Shown here: one piece after another, positions 49,942 to 57,339 of the stretch
Layout: every line of letters begins with the position of its first letter
How positions within the stretch are numbered: position 1 is the stretch's first letter
From: Sulfurospirillum arcachonense DSM 9755
GTDB lineage: Bacteria > Campylobacterota > Campylobacteria > Campylobacterales > Sulfurospirillaceae
Reading direction: 5' to 3'
Length of the DNA stretch: 57,339 nucleotides
Assembly: GCF_000597725.1 (NCBI RefSeq)
Contig: NZ_JFBL01000018.1
Coordinates: forward strand, 1-57,339
The notes under the pieces: model-generated
Told to the model about the DNA's origin: nothing
The model's input: the letters and a program-made list of their open reading frames with translations, nothing else
Database searches by the model: none
Program-made: the position numbers and the translations under genes

Positions 49942-51048
49942 ATGAACTGTGATTACTTTGGAGTTTGTGGTAGTTGTAAGTTATATGAATTGAGTTATGA
50001 CGAACAAATAGAAAAGAAAAAAAGGTTTATCAATGAGTTATTTACACCTTTAGGAGTAAATAATTTTGAAGTATTTACTTCACCAGATACACACTACAGA
50101 AATAGAGCAGAATTTAGAATTTGGCATGATGACAATGGTATGCATTATGCGATGAATCAACTTAGTGAGAAAAAGGTTGTTTTGATTGATTCTTGTCCTA
50201 AAGTGGTAAAGAAAATTGCAGATATAATGCCTAAATTAAAAGAGCTAATACAAGAAGACGAAGTGCTTAAAAGCAAACTCTTTTCTATTGAGTTTTTATC
50301 CTCTTCAACAAAAGTTTTAGTCTCTATGCTTTATCACAAAAAAATAGATGAAAGTTGGGATATACATGCAAAAAAATTGGAAAATGAATTAAATATATCT
50401 ATTATAGGAAGAAGCAGAAAAGTTAAAAGAGTTATTTCAGATGACTTTGTACTCGATGAATTAGTAGTTGATAAAAAGCCTTACATGTACAAGATTATAG
50501 AGGGTGGATTTTCGCAACCCAATAGCTTTTTAAATGCCAAGATGATAGAGTGGGCAACCTTACATGTAAAGAGTCCAAAAGACCTTTTAGAACTCTATTG
50601 TGGGCATGGTAATTTCACGATTCCATTTAGCAAACAGTTTGAAAAGGTTTTGGCAACTGAAATTTCAAAATCCTCTATAAAATCAGCAAAGAAAAGCTGT
50701 GAAATGAATGACGTAATAAATATAGAGTTTTTAAGAATGAGTGTAGAAGAGCTTACAAGTGCATTGAAAAAAGAGCGAGAATTCAACCGATTAAAAGATA
50801 TCGATTTAGATGTATATAACTTTTCTCATGTTTTTGTAGATCCTCCTCGAGCAGGGATTGATGAAAAAAGTTTGGAGTTTATAAGTCAATTTGAAAATAT
50901 TATCTATATCTCTTGTAACCCAGTTACTCTCAAAAGAGATTTAGAGTTTTTAAAAGATAAATTTGTGATAGAAAATTTTGCAATATTTGATCAGTTCCCT
51001 CACACGGATCATATTGAATCTGGAATAGTCTTAAAAAAGCGAAACTAA
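49942..51048 (+). CDS. trmA: tRNA (uracil-5-)-methyltransferase TrmA
   Basis: The 368-residue protein has an N-terminal CDYFGVCGSCKLYELSY, SAM motif LLELYCGHGNFTIPFS, VFVDPPRAGIDEKSLEFI, catalytic Cys325 in YISCNPVTLKRDLEFL and the general base Glu359 in DHIESGIVL. Length and residue positions match E. coli TrmA, which makes m5U54 in tRNA. A TTACATGTAA copy lies in the coding sequence at 50560-50569. It stands alone with its own leader (AAGTAT...ATACTT inverted repeat upstream). Confidence 0.95.
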   Translation: MNCDYFGVCGSCKLYELSYDEQIEKKKRFINELFTPLGVNNFEVFTSPDTHYRNRAEFRIWHDDNGMHYAMNQLSEKKVVLIDSCPKVVKKIADIMPKLKELIQEDEVLKSKLFSIEFLSSSTKVLVSMLYHKKIDESWDIHAKKLENELNISIIGRSRKVKRVISDDFVLDELVVDKKPYMYKIIEGGFSQPNSFLNAKMIEWATLHVKSPKDLLELYCGHGNFTIPFSKQFEKVLATEISKSSIKSAKKSCEMNDVINIEFLRMSVEELTSALKKEREFNRLKDIDLDVYNFSHVFVDPPRAGIDEKSLEFISQFENIIYISCNPVTLKRDLEFLKDKFVIENFAIFDQFPHTDHIESGIVLKKRN

Positions 51049-51151
51049 GGTAGAAAGTATAATATTATATAAATAAAAATAAAACATTATATATTTTTTA
51101 TTTTTCAAAGTTTCTCTATGATATACTCAAAAAAATTTTAAAGGAGAAAGT

Positions 51152-51586
51152 ATGGAATGCTCGATGCCAAGTATAAATACAAATGACGACAAAGTCATAA
51201 AACAAATTTTTGAAAACTGCAGGAGTATTGCTATTATTGGACTCTCTCCTGATGAATCAAAACCAAGTCATATGGTGGCAAAATATTTACAAGATTGTGG
51301 TTACAAAATAATCCCTGTCTATCCTAAAGAAGATTATATATTGGGTGAAAAAGTATATAGAAGTCTTGAAGAGATAGAAGAAAAAGTAGACATGGTTGAT
51401 ATGTTTAGAAAAGCTGATTTTGCAGATGTACTAGTTCAAACAGCAATAAAAAGAGAAGATGTGAAATATTTTTGGATACAACTTGGACTTGTCAATGATG
51501 AAGCTTTTAAAGCAGCAATGGATGCTGGAATGATAGCAGTCCAAAATAAATGCACAAAAATAGAACATAAAAGGTTATTAGGTTAA
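51152..51586 (+). CDS. CoA-binding domain protein (YccU-like)
   Basis: The 144-residue protein has a Rossmann fold CoA-binding domain: SIAIIGLSPDESKPSHMVAK, GYKIIPVYPKEDYILGEKVY, DMVDMFRKADFADVLV and MIAVQNKCTKIEHKRL. YccU-type proteins are small, cytosolic and of unknown role. The stop overlaps the ilvA start by one base (TAATG). Confidence 0.87.
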   Translation: MECSMPSINTNDDKVIKQIFENCRSIAIIGLSPDESKPSHMVAKYLQDCGYKIIPVYPKEDYILGEKVYRSLEEIEEKVDMVDMFRKADFADVLVQTAIKREDVKYFWIQLGLVNDEAFKAAMDAGMIAVQNKCTKIEHKRLLG

Positions 51587-52797
51587 TGATACAGTTAAGT
51601 GAAATAGTACAAGCAAAAAGAAGAATAAGTAAAGTTATAAATAAAACACCCTTTGCATTTGCACCACTTTTAAGTGAAGAAACGGAAACAAATGTGTATC
51701 TTAAAAAAGAGAATTTACAACTTACTGGTGCATATAAAATCCGTGGAGCTTATAATAAAATAGCTTCTTTAAGTAAAGAAGAGAGAAACAAAGGTGTAAT
51801 TGCTGCAAGTGCAGGAAATCATGCACAAGGCGTGGGTTATAGTGCAAGAGAGTTTGGTGTCAAAGCTACAATAATAATGCCTGAAGCGACTCCTTTGTTA
51901 AAAGTCACAGGAACCAAAGATTTAGGTGCAGAGGTTATTTTACACGGAAACAATTATGATGAAGCATATGGTTATGCTCTTGAGTACGCTAAAGAGCATG
52001 ATTTGACATTTATTCACCCTTTTGAAGATGAAAAAGTTATAGCAGGACAAGGAACAGTCGCTCTAGAAATGTTAGATGATGTCAATGATTTAGATTTTAT
52101 TGTAATACCTATTGGTGGAGGAGGGCTTATTAGTGGAGTTGCCTCTGCTATTAAACAGCTTGACCCAAAAATAAAAGTTATTGGTGTAACTGCTTCTGGT
52201 GCTCCTGCAATTTATGAATCTTTTAAAGCCAAAAAAGCTATAAATTCATCGAGCGTTAGAACAATTGCTGATGGGATTGCAGTAAGAGATGTAAGCCAAG
52301 GTAATTTTGAACATATACTCGAGTGTGTAGATGAAGTCGTTCAAGTGGATGATGAAGAGATTGCAAATGCGATTTTGTTTCTTTTAGAGAGACAAAAACT
52401 TGTAGTTGAAGGTGGTGGTGCTGCTAGTGTTGCTGCTATTATGCACAACAAATTTAAGTATTCTAAAGATTCTAAAATTGGCGCAATTTTAAGTGGTGGA
52501 AATATTGATGTTCAAATGCTTTCAGTGATTATTGAAAAAGGTTTAATTAAATCTCATAGGAAAATGAAACTTCTTATAACACTTATTGACAAACCAGGTG
52601 CTTTAATGGGACTTACTGATATTTTAAGAATTGCAAATGCAAATATAATAGAGATAGATTACGATAGAACTTCTACAAAACTCTCTTATGGTGATGCGAA
52701 AATAACTATAGTCTTAGAAACTAAAGGTAAAAAGCATCAAGAAGATATCATGAAAATGCTTAATAAAAATGGCTATGAAGCACAAATAGAAGTTTGA
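51586..52797 (+). CDS. ilvA: Threonine ammonia-lyase
   Basis: This is a 403-residue PLP enzyme with Lys51 in LTGAYKIRGAYNKI, SAGNHAQGVGYSA, and the glycine-rich IPIGGGGLISGVAS that holds the phosphate. A C-terminal ACT-like domain (LLITLIDKPGALMGLTDIL) follows from about residue 325. It converts threonine to 2-oxobutanoate, the first step of isoleucine synthesis, or a degradative variant. The single ACT-like domain matches the shorter IlvA/TdcB-type forms. Confidence 0.93.
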   Translation: MIQLSEIVQAKRRISKVINKTPFAFAPLLSEETETNVYLKKENLQLTGAYKIRGAYNKIASLSKEERNKGVIAASAGNHAQGVGYSAREFGVKATIIMPEATPLLKVTGTKDLGAEVILHGNNYDEAYGYALEYAKEHDLTFIHPFEDEKVIAGQGTVALEMLDDVNDLDFIVIPIGGGGLISGVASAIKQLDPKIKVIGVTASGAPAIYESFKAKKAINSSSVRTIADGIAVRDVSQGNFEHILECVDEVVQVDDEEIANAILFLLERQKLVVEGGGAASVAAIMHNKFKYSKDSKIGAILSGGNIDVQMLSVIIEKGLIKSHRKMKLLITLIDKPGALMGLTDILRIANANIIEIDYDRTSTKLSYGDAKITIVLETKGKKHQEDIMKMLNKNGYEAQIEV

Positions 52798-52871
52798 TAT
52801 AAAAATAATATTATGATTTATATATAAAATTTAGATACAATATTTTATGAGTAATTAAAAAAGGTTATTTT

Positions 52872-54428
52872 ATGTTCAGTGATGATGGTAAACTAAAATT
52901 TGTTGATAAAAATCAAAATAGTACACAGAACACATGGAAAATACTTATTGTAGATGATGAAGAGGGTGTTCATACCATCACTAAGACTGTACTTAGTGGT
53001 TTTACTTTTGAAGATTCTGCTTTACATTTTATTAGTGCATATAGTGCTACAGAAGCTATGCAAATAATGAGAGATATTGACGATATATCTCTAATTTTAC
53101 TTGATGTTGTTATGGAAGAGGATGATTCTGGATTAAAATTTGTTAAGTTTGTGAGAGATGAGCTTAAAAATGAGTTAGTAAGAATAGTTCTTAGAACAGG
53201 ACAACCAGGCCAAGCACCCGAACGTGATGTTATCGTTAAATATGATATTAATGATTATAAAGAAAAAACAGAACTAACTTCAGATAAACTCTTTACTACT
53301 ATTATTGCTTCTGTTAGAAATTATAGAGATTTAAAAGCGATTGAAGAGAAAAAAAATATTATTGAACAAAATAGAATAGGGCTTAAAAACATTATAAATG
53401 CTTCTGCAAATTTATTTGAAATCCATTCATTAAAAGAGTTTGCAAGTGGTGTTCTGATGCAGCTTATATCACTTTTAAAACTTAACAATAATTCGATGTA
53501 TATTAAAAGTGATGGTTTTACTGCAGCTAAAGATAATACAAACAATAAATGTGTATTTTTAGCTGGAACAGGAAAATATAGTGAAACTAACAGATCAATC
53601 AATGACTGTTATGATTTTGATGATGAAATTAAAAATAGACTTATAATTGCTGAGACAAGAAAAGAAAGTTACTTTGATGATGATGTTTTTGTGGGTTATT
53701 ATGAAACACACACAGGAAATAAAAACTTTTTATACATGAATGGATGTGCAGATTTAAGTGAAGATGATAAAAGATTAGTCCATATATTTTCTTCAAATGT
53801 TTCTATTGCCTTTGATAATATTTACTTGGATAAAGAAGTAGCAGAAACGCAAGCAGAAATTATCTATACACTTGGTGAAGTTATGGAAAACAGATCAAAA
53901 GAGACTGCTAGCCATGTAAAAAGAGTTGCTAACTATACCTATCTACTTGCTACAAAATATGGATTAGATGAAGAAGAGTCTTTTACTCTAAAAAGTGCTT
54001 CACCACTCCACGATATAGGTAAAATTGGTATAGAAGACTCTATACTTTTAAAACCTGGTAAATTAACAGATGAAGAATTTGTTATTATGAAAACGCATGC
54101 TCAAATAGGTTACGATATTCTTAAAAAATCAACGCGGTCTATTTTAAGAGCTGCTGCTATAGTAGCGCATGAACACCATGAAAAATATAATGGAATGGGA
54201 TATCCTAACAGTAAAAAAGGTAATGATATTCATATTTATGGTCGTATCGTTGCTATCGCTGATGTTTTTGATGCACTAACACATAAAAGAGTCTATAAAG
54301 CAGCATGGTCATTTGACGAGGCTGTTGAGCATCTAAAACAAGAAAAGGGCGAACATTTTGATCCTCATCTTATAGATTTATTTTTAAATAATTTAGATGA
54401 AGTCAAAAAAATCTACGCTATAAAATAA
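52872..54428 (+). CDS. Response regulator with DUF3369 and HD-GYP domains
   Basis: The 518-residue protein has a receiver domain with Asp28-Asp29, phosphoacceptor Asp78 (LLDVVMEE) and Lys132, a DUF3369 middle domain (about 165-325) and an HD-GYP domain (ASHVKRVANYTYLLA, LHDIGKIGIEDSILLKPGKL, HEHHEKYNGMGYP). The HD and GYP motifs are intact, so it probably hydrolyses cyclic di-GMP on phosphorylation. No partner kinase is adjacent. It is convergent with the ThiF gene and overlaps it by 11 bases. Confidence 0.94.
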   Translation: MFSDDGKLKFVDKNQNSTQNTWKILIVDDEEGVHTITKTVLSGFTFEDSALHFISAYSATEAMQIMRDIDDISLILLDVVMEEDDSGLKFVKFVRDELKNELVRIVLRTGQPGQAPERDVIVKYDINDYKEKTELTSDKLFTTIIASVRNYRDLKAIEEKKNIIEQNRIGLKNIINASANLFEIHSLKEFASGVLMQLISLLKLNNNSMYIKSDGFTAAKDNTNNKCVFLAGTGKYSETNRSINDCYDFDDEIKNRLIIAETRKESYFDDDVFVGYYETHTGNKNFLYMNGCADLSEDDKRLVHIFSSNVSIAFDNIYLDKEVAETQAEIIYTLGEVMENRSKETASHVKRVANYTYLLATKYGLDEEESFTLKSASPLHDIGKIGIEDSILLKPGKLTDEEFVIMKTHAQIGYDILKKSTRSILRAAAIVAHEHHEKYNGMGYPNSKKGNDIHIYGRIVAIADVFDALTHKRVYKAAWSFDEAVEHLKQEKGEHFDPHLIDLFLNNLDEVKKIYAIK

Positions 54429-55215
54429 TAAATTCATTTTCTAGTAAATTAGAAATTAAAATTTTCTCTTTTAAAGGTTCTCCTATGTTAAGTAAAACTT
54501 TTATAGCTTCAGCACTTTGAATTGATGCTGCAAAAGTAACTGAAAAAGAGGGGTTCCCTATACTTTTTTCTATTCCTGATGAACCATCTCTATAAAGTTT
54601 ATCTAAAGTATTACAGGTAGTAAACTGTCCATTCATACCAGCAATTGCACCATGAATAAAACTTATTTTATTTTCCTTACATATTTTGGCTAATTCTAAT
54701 TTTGTTTGTGGATTATCAAGTGCATCAATGACAACATCTACATTTTGTATCATTTTAAAATCATTTATTGGATCAAATTTATGAACATAGGCATTTACAT
54801 GTAAAGCTGGATTTATTTTTTCTAATCCCTCTTTAACTACAGTTACTTTTTCTTTTCCAAGACTCTCTAAATTTGAAAAATTTTGTCTATTTAAGTTATG
54901 TTCTTCAAAAATATCAAAATCAAAAATACTTAATTCTCCTATACCAATCCTTGTTAAAATTTCAGCTATATGACCACCAAGTCCACCACTTCCTATAATA
55001 GCAATATGTGAATTTAAAAGTTTTAATTGTGATTTAGTATTGATTGTAGATTGATTTCTTTTATATCTTAATGGTGTGATTCCTAGATTAAGAGCTATTT
55101 GTTCAATCTGTTTAAATGAAATATTATATTGTTGTTGTAATTGCATTTCAATTTTGAGTGGTAAGAACTTCTCAATCGAGTTTTTTTGAATGTTATTTTC
55201 TATTGTAATAGGCAT
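54418..55215 (-). CDS. ThiF/MoeB/HesA-family E1-like enzyme lacking Zn cysteines
   Basis: The 265-residue protein has the adenylation motif IAIIGSGGLGGHIAEILTRI, the loop LSIFDFDIFEEHNLNRQNF with the conserved acid and Arg, and DVVIDALDNPQTKLELA. Only two Cys are present (ICKEN and FTTCNT) and no CxxC, so the usual structural zinc site is missing. It lies beside a MoaD-like gene and an AOR gene and probably adenylates that MoaD-like protein during cofactor synthesis. A TTACATGTAA copy lies inside (54795-54804). Confidence 0.87.
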   Translation of the reverse strand: MPITIENNIQKNSIEKFLPLKIEMQLQQQYNISFKQIEQIALNLGITPLRYKRNQSTINTKSQLKLLNSHIAIIGSGGLGGHIAEILTRIGIGELSIFDFDIFEEHNLNRQNFSNLESLGKEKVTVVKEGLEKINPALHVNAYVHKFDPINDFKMIQNVDVVIDALDNPQTKLELAKICKENKISFIHGAIAGMNGQFTTCNTLDKLYRDGSSGIEKSIGNPSFSVTFAASIQSAEAIKVLLNIGEPLKEKILISNLLENEFIIL

Positions 55216-55233
55216 TTTATATCCTTCTATGAT

Positions 55234-55239
55234 ATTATA
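55234..55239 (-). promoter_or_regulatory. -10 element for the ThiF-like gene, at the MoaD start codon
   Basis: Minus-strand TATAAT whose outer base is the first base of the MoaD-like gene. AGAAGGA precedes the ThiF ATG at suitable spacing. The divergent starts are only 23 bases apart. Confidence 0.45.
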
Positions 55240-55538
55240 TGATTATGATTAAAATTACATTTAATGCGTTTTCTTTTTTAAGAGAAAACCTAAAAAAACA
55301 AAATATTCCTTATATTAATTCTATTATGGAACTTCCTGAACATTATACTCCAAATGCACTTATAAATGACCTTGGATACGAAGAAGGAAAAGTTGAATTT
55401 GTTTTTATAAATGGTAAAGTACACCCTAAAAATACTGAATTAAAAGATGGTGACAGAGTAGCGTTAGTCCCTCCAGGGACTCCTGGTTCATACCGCTTAA
55501 TGTTAGGTGCTAAAAAAATAGAGAAGTTGGAGGATTAA
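55239..55538 (+). CDS. MoaD/ThiS-like protein with atypical C-terminus
   Basis: The 99-residue protein has a ubiquitin-like fold: IKITFNAFSFLRENLKKQNI, VEFVFINGKVHPKNTELKDG and DRVALVPPGTPGSYRLMLGA. Normal MoaD ends in Gly-Gly right after the PP motif. Here the chain runs on to AKKIEKLED, and the codons for the tail form a terminator stem. Proteins of this type accompany AOR-family tungsten enzymes. The start is ATG 55239 or 55245; no good ribosome binding site is visible for either. The product should take part in pterin cofactor sulfuration, but how it does so without a terminal GG is unclear. Confidence 0.82.
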   Translation: MIMIKITFNAFSFLRENLKKQNIPYINSIMELPEHYTPNALINDLGYEEGKVEFVFINGKVHPKNTELKDGDRVALVPPGTPGSYRLMLGAKKIEKLED

Positions 55539-55559
55539 TACCCTCCAACTTCTCTTTTA
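55520..55559. terminator. Strong terminator overlapping the end of the MoaD-like gene
   Basis: The arms 55520-55533 and 55542-55555 (AGAGAAGTTGGAGG and its complement) form a perfect 14-bp stem with an 8-base loop that holds the stop codon. T-runs on both sides make it bidirectional between convergent genes. Confidence 0.85.
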
Positions 55560-55589
55560 CTAAAACATAATCTTCTTTTTCTACTTAAA

Positions 55590-57326
55590 TCAAAAATTCC
55601 AGAACTCATCAATTTCTTCATTTGTAAAATCCCAAGTAGCATTATGAGGAGGAAGTGCTTCGTACTTCATAAACTCTGGCATTCTATCGTCTGCACTAGT
55701 AAAACCAGCTTTTTGATTAAATGCATGTTCTGTTTTTAGAATAGTTGAACCAAGATTTACTACATCATCACCAGTAAGGCTTGCTCCAAATCTAGCATTT
55801 ATCATATCTATAAGTGCTGGTAAACATTTTGGGTCATCAAGGGCAGGGAAGGCTACAAATATACACATACCTGTACTATCAACTGCTGCACTTGCTATTT
55901 GAAGATTTCTTGCAAGTTCTACTTGTCCCTCTTTTTTAAGAGGATCTACATATCCACCACTATTTAGAATATTTGTAGCAACTGCATATCCTGCTGTATG
56001 ATCAGCTCCCATTGGAGTTGTAACATAAGTTACACCTTGTCCTTTTACACTTCTTGGATCATATGCTGGTATACCTTGTCCTTTTACAGTTGGAACTCTT
56101 ACTAGTCCATATATTTTTCCCAATACATGTGTTCCACTTCCTATAATTCTACCAAGTGGTGTTCCATTTGCTAACTCATCTGCAAGAAGCTGATATGCTT
56201 TCTCACCATCACCATATTCTAAGATTCCAGCATCTACTGCTAAACCTAAACAAACACTTGTTTCGATTGAATCTAATCCTAAATCATCCATCAAGCCATC
56301 AATTTTTGCTATTTGATCTAAATCTTCGATACCAAGATTTGCTCCTAGTGCCCAAATAGTTTCATATTCAAATCCTGATGTCAGGTATTTTCCTTCTTTA
56401 TCATTATATACTTGAGAACATTGGATTACACAGCCTGCATGACAACCATGAGTTGTTTTTCCACCACGTTCTTTAATATTTTCTGCCATTGTTTCACCAC
56501 AGATATTCTCTGCATGTTCCCAAGAACCTTCTCTAAAGTTTCTTGTTGGTAATCCTCCAGCTTCATTAAGTATATTTACAAGTACATTTGTTCCAAATGC
56601 TGGTAATCCTTCACCACTGATAGGATTTTCTTGAAGTGCTTTAGTAAACACTTTACTTGCTTCTTTAAACTTCTCAGGATCTGCAATCGTTACTTCTTTA
56701 TACTTTTCAGAATCAATAGTTATACATTTGATTTTTTTAGAACCCATAACAGCACCAAGTCCACCACGTCCATGGCTTCTTAGTTTACCTTGTGGATCTT
56801 TTACTGATATATTTGATGTTAGCATTTGCATTTCACCTGGACGAGCGATACTCATCACAGCTACTTTCTTATTATACTTTTCAAGCATAGCATCTAGTAC
56901 ATAATAATTATCTTTTCCTACGAGTTCAGGTACTTCAATAAAATCTACATTATCTTTAGTAATGTGTAGTTGATAAAACTTACTAGTATCTTGTGGAATA
57001 CCTTCAATAATAAGTGCTTTTACTCCTAGCTTTGACATAATCCCTGCAGTTGTCCCACCGACATTACTCTCTTTGATACCACCTGTAAGAGGGCTCTTTG
57101 CTCCACAGGAATTTCTTCCTGAGTTTGCTGCACTTGTACCTGAGAGTAAACCTGGTGCAAAAACAAGTTTATTATTTGGTCCAAGAGGGTGGCATTCTGG
57201 ATCAACTTCTTCTGCTACTACTGTAGAAGTAAAGCCTCTTCCTCCAAGTCCCATCCATTGTGAAGGAACTTCTTCTATCTTAAAACTTAATTCATTCATG
57301 TTTACACGATAAATTTTATCTGCCAT
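55590..57326 (-). CDS. Aldehyde:ferredoxin oxidoreductase family enzyme (tungsten/molybdenum)
   Basis: The 578-residue protein is AOR-like: MGLGGRGFTSTVVAEEVDP, then GAKSPLTGGIKESNVGGTTA, then RGGLGAVMGSKKIKCITIDS. The [4Fe-4S] ligands are Cys295, Cys299 and Cys303 in HGCHAGCVIQC and probably Cys488 in STGMCIFVAF. LGANLGIEDLDQI and GLDSIETSVCLGLAVDAG are typical of the C-terminal domains. It oxidises aldehydes to acids with a bis-tungstopterin and passes electrons to ferredoxin or a linked Fe-S subunit. The start is ATG 57326 after AAGGAG, so the gene is complete. Possible Fe-S and flavin partner genes would lie beyond the window. Confidence 0.94.
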   Translation of the reverse strand: MADKIYRVNMNELSFKIEEVPSQWMGLGGRGFTSTVVAEEVDPECHPLGPNNKLVFAPGLLSGTSAANSGRNSCGAKSPLTGGIKESNVGGTTAGIMSKLGVKALIIEGIPQDTSKFYQLHITKDNVDFIEVPELVGKDNYYVLDAMLEKYNKKVAVMSIARPGEMQMLTSNISVKDPQGKLRSHGRGGLGAVMGSKKIKCITIDSEKYKEVTIADPEKFKEASKVFTKALQENPISGEGLPAFGTNVLVNILNEAGGLPTRNFREGSWEHAENICGETMAENIKERGGKTTHGCHAGCVIQCSQVYNDKEGKYLTSGFEYETIWALGANLGIEDLDQIAKIDGLMDDLGLDSIETSVCLGLAVDAGILEYGDGEKAYQLLADELANGTPLGRIIGSGTHVLGKIYGLVRVPTVKGQGIPAYDPRSVKGQGVTYVTTPMGADHTAGYAVATNILNSGGYVDPLKKEGQVELARNLQIASAAVDSTGMCIFVAFPALDDPKCLPALIDMINARFGASLTGDDVVNLGSTILKTEHAFNQKAGFTSADDRMPEFMKYEALPPHNATWDFTNEEIDEFWNF

Positions 57327-57339
57327 TTTAATCTCCTTA

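Follow-up and report, generated by a model that had tools for sequence, protein, structure and literature searches.

Why does a gene for a tungsten-dependent aldehyde oxidoreductase (AOR) stand beside one for a MoaD-like protein that does not end in Gly-Gly? MoaD adenylation requires a free C-terminal Gly, and the activating enzyme, MoeB in Escherichia coli, carries four Zn cysteines. The question is raised by a locus of Sulfurospirillum arcachonense DSM 9755, whose genome comprises 2.66 Mb in 42 contigs; the stretch analysed, called the window below, corresponds to the complete contig C18 (57339 bases). An earlier note, made from the sequence alone, had placed genes for a ThiF-like protein, a MoaD-like protein and an AOR beside each other at 54418-57326, and all three open reading frames (ORFs) lie there. 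Its description of the MoaD-like end as PPGTPG plus about 16 residues is accurate (exactly 16 follow GTPG), as is that of a ThiF-like protein lacking CxxC and having just two Cys (Cys179 and Cys201). The explanation favoured here is an AOR cluster consisting of a classical MoaD carrier with a Gly-Gly end (GG-MoaD), its ThiF, and a second MoaD paralog with a locked C-terminus that would serve as an adaptor. As a whole, this explanation is given about an even chance.

A MoaD fold with a conserved C-terminal tail

The tailed MoaD-like protein belongs to the ThiS family (PF02597 36.3 bits, cut-off 22.5), and the model match stops exactly at residue 83 (model position 76/76). Its C-terminus is VPPGTPG-SYRLMLGAKKIEKLED, the full ending being read as PPGTPGSYRLMLGAKKIEKLED, so that the free C-terminal Gly-Gly of MoaD/ThiS carriers is absent and Pro occupies the penultimate Gly position. 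The NCBIfam MoaD cut-offs are not reached (moaD_arch 23.4 of 49.5 bits; PRK11130 22 of 94 bits). AlphaFold predicts a confident beta-grasp fold (mean pLDDT 89.7) and, with moderate confidence, a short helix at residues 83-88 of the tail; the best PDB matches of another, earlier AlphaFold model are MoaD proteins. The sequence strongly indicates that the protein would be unable to offer a C-terminal glycine and hence would not act as a sulfur carrier. The closest named relative (78% identity) is found in a Sulfurospirillum metagenome-assembled genome (MAG); another tailed MoaD with the variant PPGGIPNHVRAYVG is located at a contig edge of that MAG (L062:1498-1653).

Searching 298 genomes of the host's order for the tailed MoaD gave 34 matching genomes, from which 30 loci were read; the matches in G127, G020, G044 and G270 were left unread and are counted with the non-tailed genomes. 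All 31 loci (the 30 of the order and that of the Sulfurospirillum MAG) show the motif PPGTPGS[YF]R[LI]xxG. Its codon use varies (all four Pro, Gly and Ser codons occur, as do six for Arg), and Arg86 is R in every locus although encoded by six different codons. Since codons vary while residues are kept, the tail is held at the protein level. A frameshift, a sequencing error or chance as the origin of the tail is ruled out by this conservation in independent genomes. Nine genomes of the order (G121, G084, G097, G109, G288, G028, G071, G213, G282) show a second, more diverged tailed-MoaD match.

A profile of the tailed proteins was further searched at 1e-4 in the phyla of two genomes, G303 (that of locus L014, titled Alkalihalobacillus) and G301 (that of L012, titled Deltaproteobacteria), and matched 97/348 and 72/247 genomes, respectively. 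The majority of these matches end before the tail; the strongest ones, read at 29 loci in the first phylum and 12 in the second, span it with P.G.P[GS].[YHF]R or a close variant. Across the three groups (35 sequences), E53, R73, P78, G80, P82 and R86 are invariant, and G83, L89 and G90 are each kept in at least 90%; G83 is replaced by Ser in some members (PPGIPS, PPGLPS). The consensus across three phyla reads PPGTPG[SP][YHF]R..LG. The check proposed in the earlier note, whether AOR-linked MoaD proteins elsewhere share the tail, is thus answered in the affirmative by the 31 related loci and the two other phyla. In the order of G300, 10/120 genomes matched at 1e-5 and the tail occurs in none of the 11 loci read, nine of which are long ORFs resembling Ub-Mut7C proteins.

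A tree computed from the beta-grasp part only, cut before the tail, places the 51 tailed rows on one side of one branch (support 100/99; 200/200 bootstrap trees); it comprises 80 columns and 124 rows, its inner forks are weak, and four rows not scoring as MoaD-like were removed. In a second tree (26/51 tailed and 21/63 GG rows, plus Ub-Mut7C rows), the tailed group is not one clade (2 changes) because of the sixth Ub-Mut7C row, L204, a misplaced zinc-ribbon piece. A derivation of the tailed MoaD from the Ub-Mut7C domain is unsupported: the protein scores 19.9 bits against a Pfam cut-off of 23, its 99 residues leave no room for a Mut7-C domain, and in the second tree the other five Ub-Mut7C rows, of six, are placed with the GG proteins.

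The GG-ending MoaD, the ThiF and two AOR copies

AOR lies within the fetched piece for 20 of the 31 loci, and 19 of these 20 contain a second small MoaD ending in FPK[VI]GGG. This gene follows AOR immediately on its 3' side and separates it from the tailed gene; the window is the exception. In the phyla of G303 and G301, AOR is found within 5 kb at 17/40 tailed loci, of which 16 have a GGG-ending MoaD and 13 a ThiF. AOR, tailed MoaD and GGG-MoaD are consecutive in Acetoanaerobium noterae, which was also the single record returned by a plasmid search for close relatives.

At the window locus itself, the 51 bases separating AOR from the tailed gene include a 21-base exact match to the GG-MoaD gene; shuffling this gap 2000 times gave no match longer than 13 bases. 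This remnant indicates that the GG-MoaD gene was lost here. An intact copy is encoded by the same genome on contig C31 (bases 108-350), right after an AOR 3' end, and the idea of a genome without a GG carrier for AOR is therefore rejected. A second AOR copy terminates contig C19 and matches the window AOR along 1737 bases without a difference. Each end of C31 shares an exact 95-base overlap with a neighbour, C19 at one end and C18 at the other. These contig overlaps suggest the order AOR-1, GG-MoaD, sensor kinase, response regulator, AOR-2, remnant, tailed MoaD, ThiF. With at least two identical copies and contig breaks falling at AOR, an assembly collapse, which could mask differences between the AOR copies, or a recent AOR duplication is likely.

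The interval between the two copies (C31, L050:375-2944) encodes a histidine kinase, FIST/NosP-like in its N-terminal part, together with a response regulator of the OmpR type, a pair that may sense something relevant to AOR expression. Just upstream of the C19 AOR copy, a XerC/XerD-like tyrosine recombinase is found (L047:280-1329), a possible agent of the duplication. Elsewhere, the genome harbors a canonical-looking moaD (PPVCGG) beside a moaE-like gene as well as a ThiS-like protein.

The ThiF-like protein shows the family fold and adenylation site (PF00899 161 bits), lacks the pair of zinc-binding CxxC motifs and stays below the NCBIfam equivalog cut-offs (moeB 113.5 of 376.55, thiF 123 of 275.25 bits). 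GxGGLGG, NxNRQ, K123 and DALD are invariant in the 21 aligned AOR-linked relatives. By sequence and fold, MoaD-like protein and ThiF correspond to the beta-grasp partner and the adenylyltransferase of Escherichia coli MoaD-MoeB (1jw9/1jwb), from which they differ by the missing free Gly-Gly and the missing Zn cysteines. The earlier note had regarded the absent cysteines as a distinguishing trait; they are not diagnostic, since CxxC occurs in none of the three ThiF-family proteins above the Pfam cut-off in this genome, and the missing zinc motif is thus not special to this pair.

Three genomes, G222 and G091 of the same genus and G116 of the same family, carry AOR, GG-MoaD and ThiF in one direction and have no tailed gene, in the sense of no tailed-MoaD match at 1e-5 and none in the fetched pieces. 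As ThiF follows GG-MoaD where the tailed gene is absent, it appears to go with the GG carrier, the tailed protein being optional, and the GG carrier is most likely what a ThiF of the window type activates.

The AOR shows both the N- and C-terminal AFOR domains (Pfam PF02730 195.6 bits, PF01314 251.1 bits), and contig C18 ends 13 bases upstream of its start codon. The start codons of the divergent ThiF and tailed genes are separated by 23 bases (55216-55238). No Rfam riboswitch was found within 50000-57339. The features of the locus are listed in Table 1.

Table 1. Features of the AOR locus, in window positions
Feature	Position	Strand	Evidence
ThiF/MoeB-like adenylyltransferase, 265 residues, no CxxC	54418-55215	-	PF00899 161 bits; adenylation residues invariant in 21/21
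Tailed (C-terminally locked) MoaD-like protein, 99 residues	55239-55538	+	PF02597 36.3 bits; MoaD-like fold; clade support 100/99
Codons 78-99: PPGTPG and 16-residue tail SYRLMLGAKKIEKLED in place of a PPxxGG end	55470-55535	+	P78, G80, P82, R86 invariant in 35/35, three phyla
Remnant of classical GG-MoaD gene, 21 bases exact, within the 51-base gap between AOR and tailed gene	55561-55581	-	Exact match to intact gene on C31
Aldehyde oxidoreductase (WOR large subunit), 578 residues	55590-57326	-	PF02730, PF01314; PDB relatives 9mqx, 1aor, 8c0z

Association with AOR and comparable systems

The tailed gene and AOR tend to occur in the same genomes. Within the order, AOR (PF02730) is present in 29/30 read tailed genomes versus 9/268 others (p 3e-31), and within the phylum of G303 in 29/29 versus 175/319 (p 8e-8), these p-values, like the one given below for the phylum of G301, being inflated by phylogenetic relatedness. 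The sole tailed genome of the order lacking AOR is G240, where the tailed gene sits at the edge of a contig. The association extends to a particular AOR clade, defined by a match of at least 560 bits to the window AOR (P0003) and scored in 80 chosen genomes: it is met in 30/32 tailed versus 9/42 untailed AOR-bearing genomes (p 1e-10), and the remaining six are genomes of the order picked as exceptions, three with a close AOR and three without a match. Of the two tailed genomes below 560 bits, G827 and G688, the latter has two AOR fragments of 58% identity at contig ends. In the phyla of G303 and G301, genomes whose tailed gene is distant from AOR nearly always hold an AOR of the window type.

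For the unlinked tailed genes, no common neighbour accounting for them was seen in the contexts examined. In three genomes of G301's phylum (L160, L161, L162), the unlinked tailed gene adjoins two ORFs, one of 747-837 residues resembling a CDC48-type ATPase and one of 324-358 residues resembling an aldo-keto reductase, both named by eye. Where the genes are linked in the order, the tailed gene is mostly oriented opposite to AOR, GG-MoaD and ThiF, and may thus serve as an antisense insert within the AOR-GG-MoaD-ThiF operon.

Linkage of AOR with MoaD and MoeB was described in 2006 (Iyer, Burroughs and Aravind; PMC1779556), with a table covering delta/epsilon proteobacteria. The neighbourhoods are alike; the passages of that paper considered here contain no division into GG-ending and tailed forms and mention no pairing. 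In 2026, the name WorX was given to a protein thought to act in pterin biosynthesis, whose gene accompanies thiF next to Class I and IV WORs; WOR87 of Cetobacterium somerae, for instance, adjoins worX and thiF (PMC13328260). Like WorX, the tailed MoaD is a ThiS-like protein encoded alongside a WOR large subunit, the gap to the AOR ORF being 51 bases. This comparison is by description only: what defines WorX is its gene neighbourhood and its likeness to ThiS, and the passages of PMC13328260 considered give no tail, second paralog or activity.

Two further systems include experiments. AorD and AorE of Aromatoleum aromaticum are encoded by two genes of the aor operon and are said to resemble MoaD (PMC6365974, PMC9295118), and the activity of recombinant AOR rose from 4.5 to 16 U/mg when aorDE was added (PMC9295118). 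The Aromatoleum AOR has three subunits according to the portions of both papers used here, and AorD/E are likened to the tailed MoaD by description only. In Thermococcus kodakarensis, the GG end of UblB is required for growth dependent on the tungsten cofactor, and deletion of the AOR-adjacent ublC lowered AOR activity to about 54% (PMC11323500). Like the tailed MoaD, UblA, UblB and UblC are ubiquitin-like proteins connected with tungsten-cofactor enzymes, with ublC located by AOR and one E1/ThiF serving all; unlike it, they are described in the parts of that paper considered as having a conserved C-terminal di-glycine. Searches of open-licence main texts in PubMed Central, mostly at the level of listings, turned up no account of the locked tail or of a carrier paired with a locked paralog. 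The AOR-linked genes are already known, and the tail family and the pairing look new.

A proposed adaptor and the rival readings

In the favoured reading, the full cluster would consist of AOR, a GG-MoaD as sulfur carrier and a ThiF adenylating it, to which a locked MoaD is added in many genomes; in the window genome, the carrier beside this AOR copy would have decayed, with the intact one following the other copy. The tailed protein is proposed, as a weaker inference than its inability to carry sulfur, to be an adaptor in the assembly of the AOR tungsten cofactor. Its beta-grasp face would bind a MoaD partner (MoaE, ThiF or the cofactor machinery), while the tail with its invariant Arg would dock on another component, e.g. 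apo-AOR or the pterin phosphate. Such docking would direct the molybdopterin/tungsten cofactor to this AOR clade. Were the tail simply cut away, the residues past the cut would vary, yet R86 is invariant; the full-length protein is therefore probably the working form and no sulfur donor.

Several observations weigh against this reading. The tail is modelled with only moderate confidence (pLDDT about 73 for residues 81-90 and 60 beyond). The association with AOR is not significant in G301's phylum (12/12 versus 183/235, p 0.054), a strong match to this AOR clade is missing from the tailed genome G827, and 23/40 tailed genes in the phyla of G303 and G301 have no AOR within 5 kb. The tailed gene is also dispensable, as a close AOR (80-82% identity) occurs without it in two of four sampled genomes of the genus and in one further genome of the family. 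Tungsten content measured without added tungstate dropped from 1.06 to 0.39 with aorDE while activity rose (PMC9295118), and the AorDE and UblC experiments, likened by description, may concern GG-type proteins only.

The main rival, itself judged unlikely, is a regulator: the tailed MoaD would bind ThiF or MoaE without taking sulfur, and would thereby restrain molybdopterin synthesis or balance it between AOR and the molybdoenzymes. A MoaD fold retained while the C-terminus is locked fits this idea, as do the frequent orientation of the tailed gene opposite to AOR-GG-ThiF transcription and its absence from some close genomes. A simple decoy leaves the near-invariant 13-residue motif with R86 and G90 unexplained, however, and the tailed gene is co-directional in two linked loci of the order (L037, L038).

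A processed precursor ranks next and is considered similarly improbable. Here a protease would cut after Gly83 and ThiF would adenylate the freed Pro-Gly end, yielding a normal carrier in the manner of eukaryotic ubiquitin precursors. G83, which aligns with the terminal glycine of carriers, is widely kept, and the ThiS model match ends precisely there. Cleavage after GTPG, which the earlier note had considered, is nevertheless disfavoured: Arg86 (35/35) and Gly90, like L89, lie beyond the cut and are as conserved as the residues before it, G83 is Ser in some members, the penultimate Gly is Pro, and a separate GGG carrier is already adjacent at nearly all linked loci.

Less probable still is the suggestion of the earlier note that the tailed MoaD and the window ThiF form a dedicated pair with a different chemistry. 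They are close divergent neighbours, and ThiF remains beside the tailed gene when AOR is more distant (L027, L029, L032). Against such a working pair stand the GGG-MoaD in 19/20 AOR loci, the GGG gene elsewhere in this genome, and the position of ThiF directly after GG-MoaD in G222, G091 and G116, which have no tailed gene; the ThiFs moreover keep the standard adenylation residues, and the genome's other members of the family lack CxxC as well. The link of the tailed protein with AOR, as that note had it, is strong (29/30 tailed genomes of the order have AOR); a working pair of tailed MoaD and ThiF is not supported. Finally, a neutral leftover in a decaying protein is very improbable: this genome did lose the GG-MoaD next door, but the tail is kept at the protein level, its codons varying, in the order and across three phyla, which contradicts such a reading.

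Returning to the adaptor, a broader version can be put forward tentatively, namely that tungsten AOR loci use two ubiquitin-like proteins, a GG carrier and a sulfur-free locked adaptor for assembly or delivery, with locked paralogs having arisen at least twice. Besides the tail described above (type A, one clade in three phyla), a type B tail, FPPE[LMV][AS]FN... followed by a conserved FR, is found at eight loci beside AOR in G301's phylum (L210-L216, L218), five of which have a GG-MoaD immediately adjacent. Type B rows are placed on the GG side of the beta-grasp tree, away from the tailed clade, which suggests more than one origin of locked MoaD paralogs beside AOR. Other endings are seen as well: at L220:2702-2965, by AOR, a MoaD ending in PPVGGM (GG capped by one Met) stands in tandem with a PPVGGG MoaD, and the MoaDs of L105 and L121 likewise end in GGM or AGM.

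The mechanism that matches specific Ubls to specific apo-enzymes is called unknown in PMC11323500, and the exact function of WorX is stated as unknown in PMC13328260. Dividing the AOR-linked MoaDs into GG carriers and a tail-locked paralog provides a concrete candidate for a non-carrier step. In practical terms, both MoaD genes should be expressed when bacterial AORs are produced. Should the tail indeed dock on apo-AOR or on the pterin, the MoaD fold would serve here as an adaptor instead of a sulfur donor.

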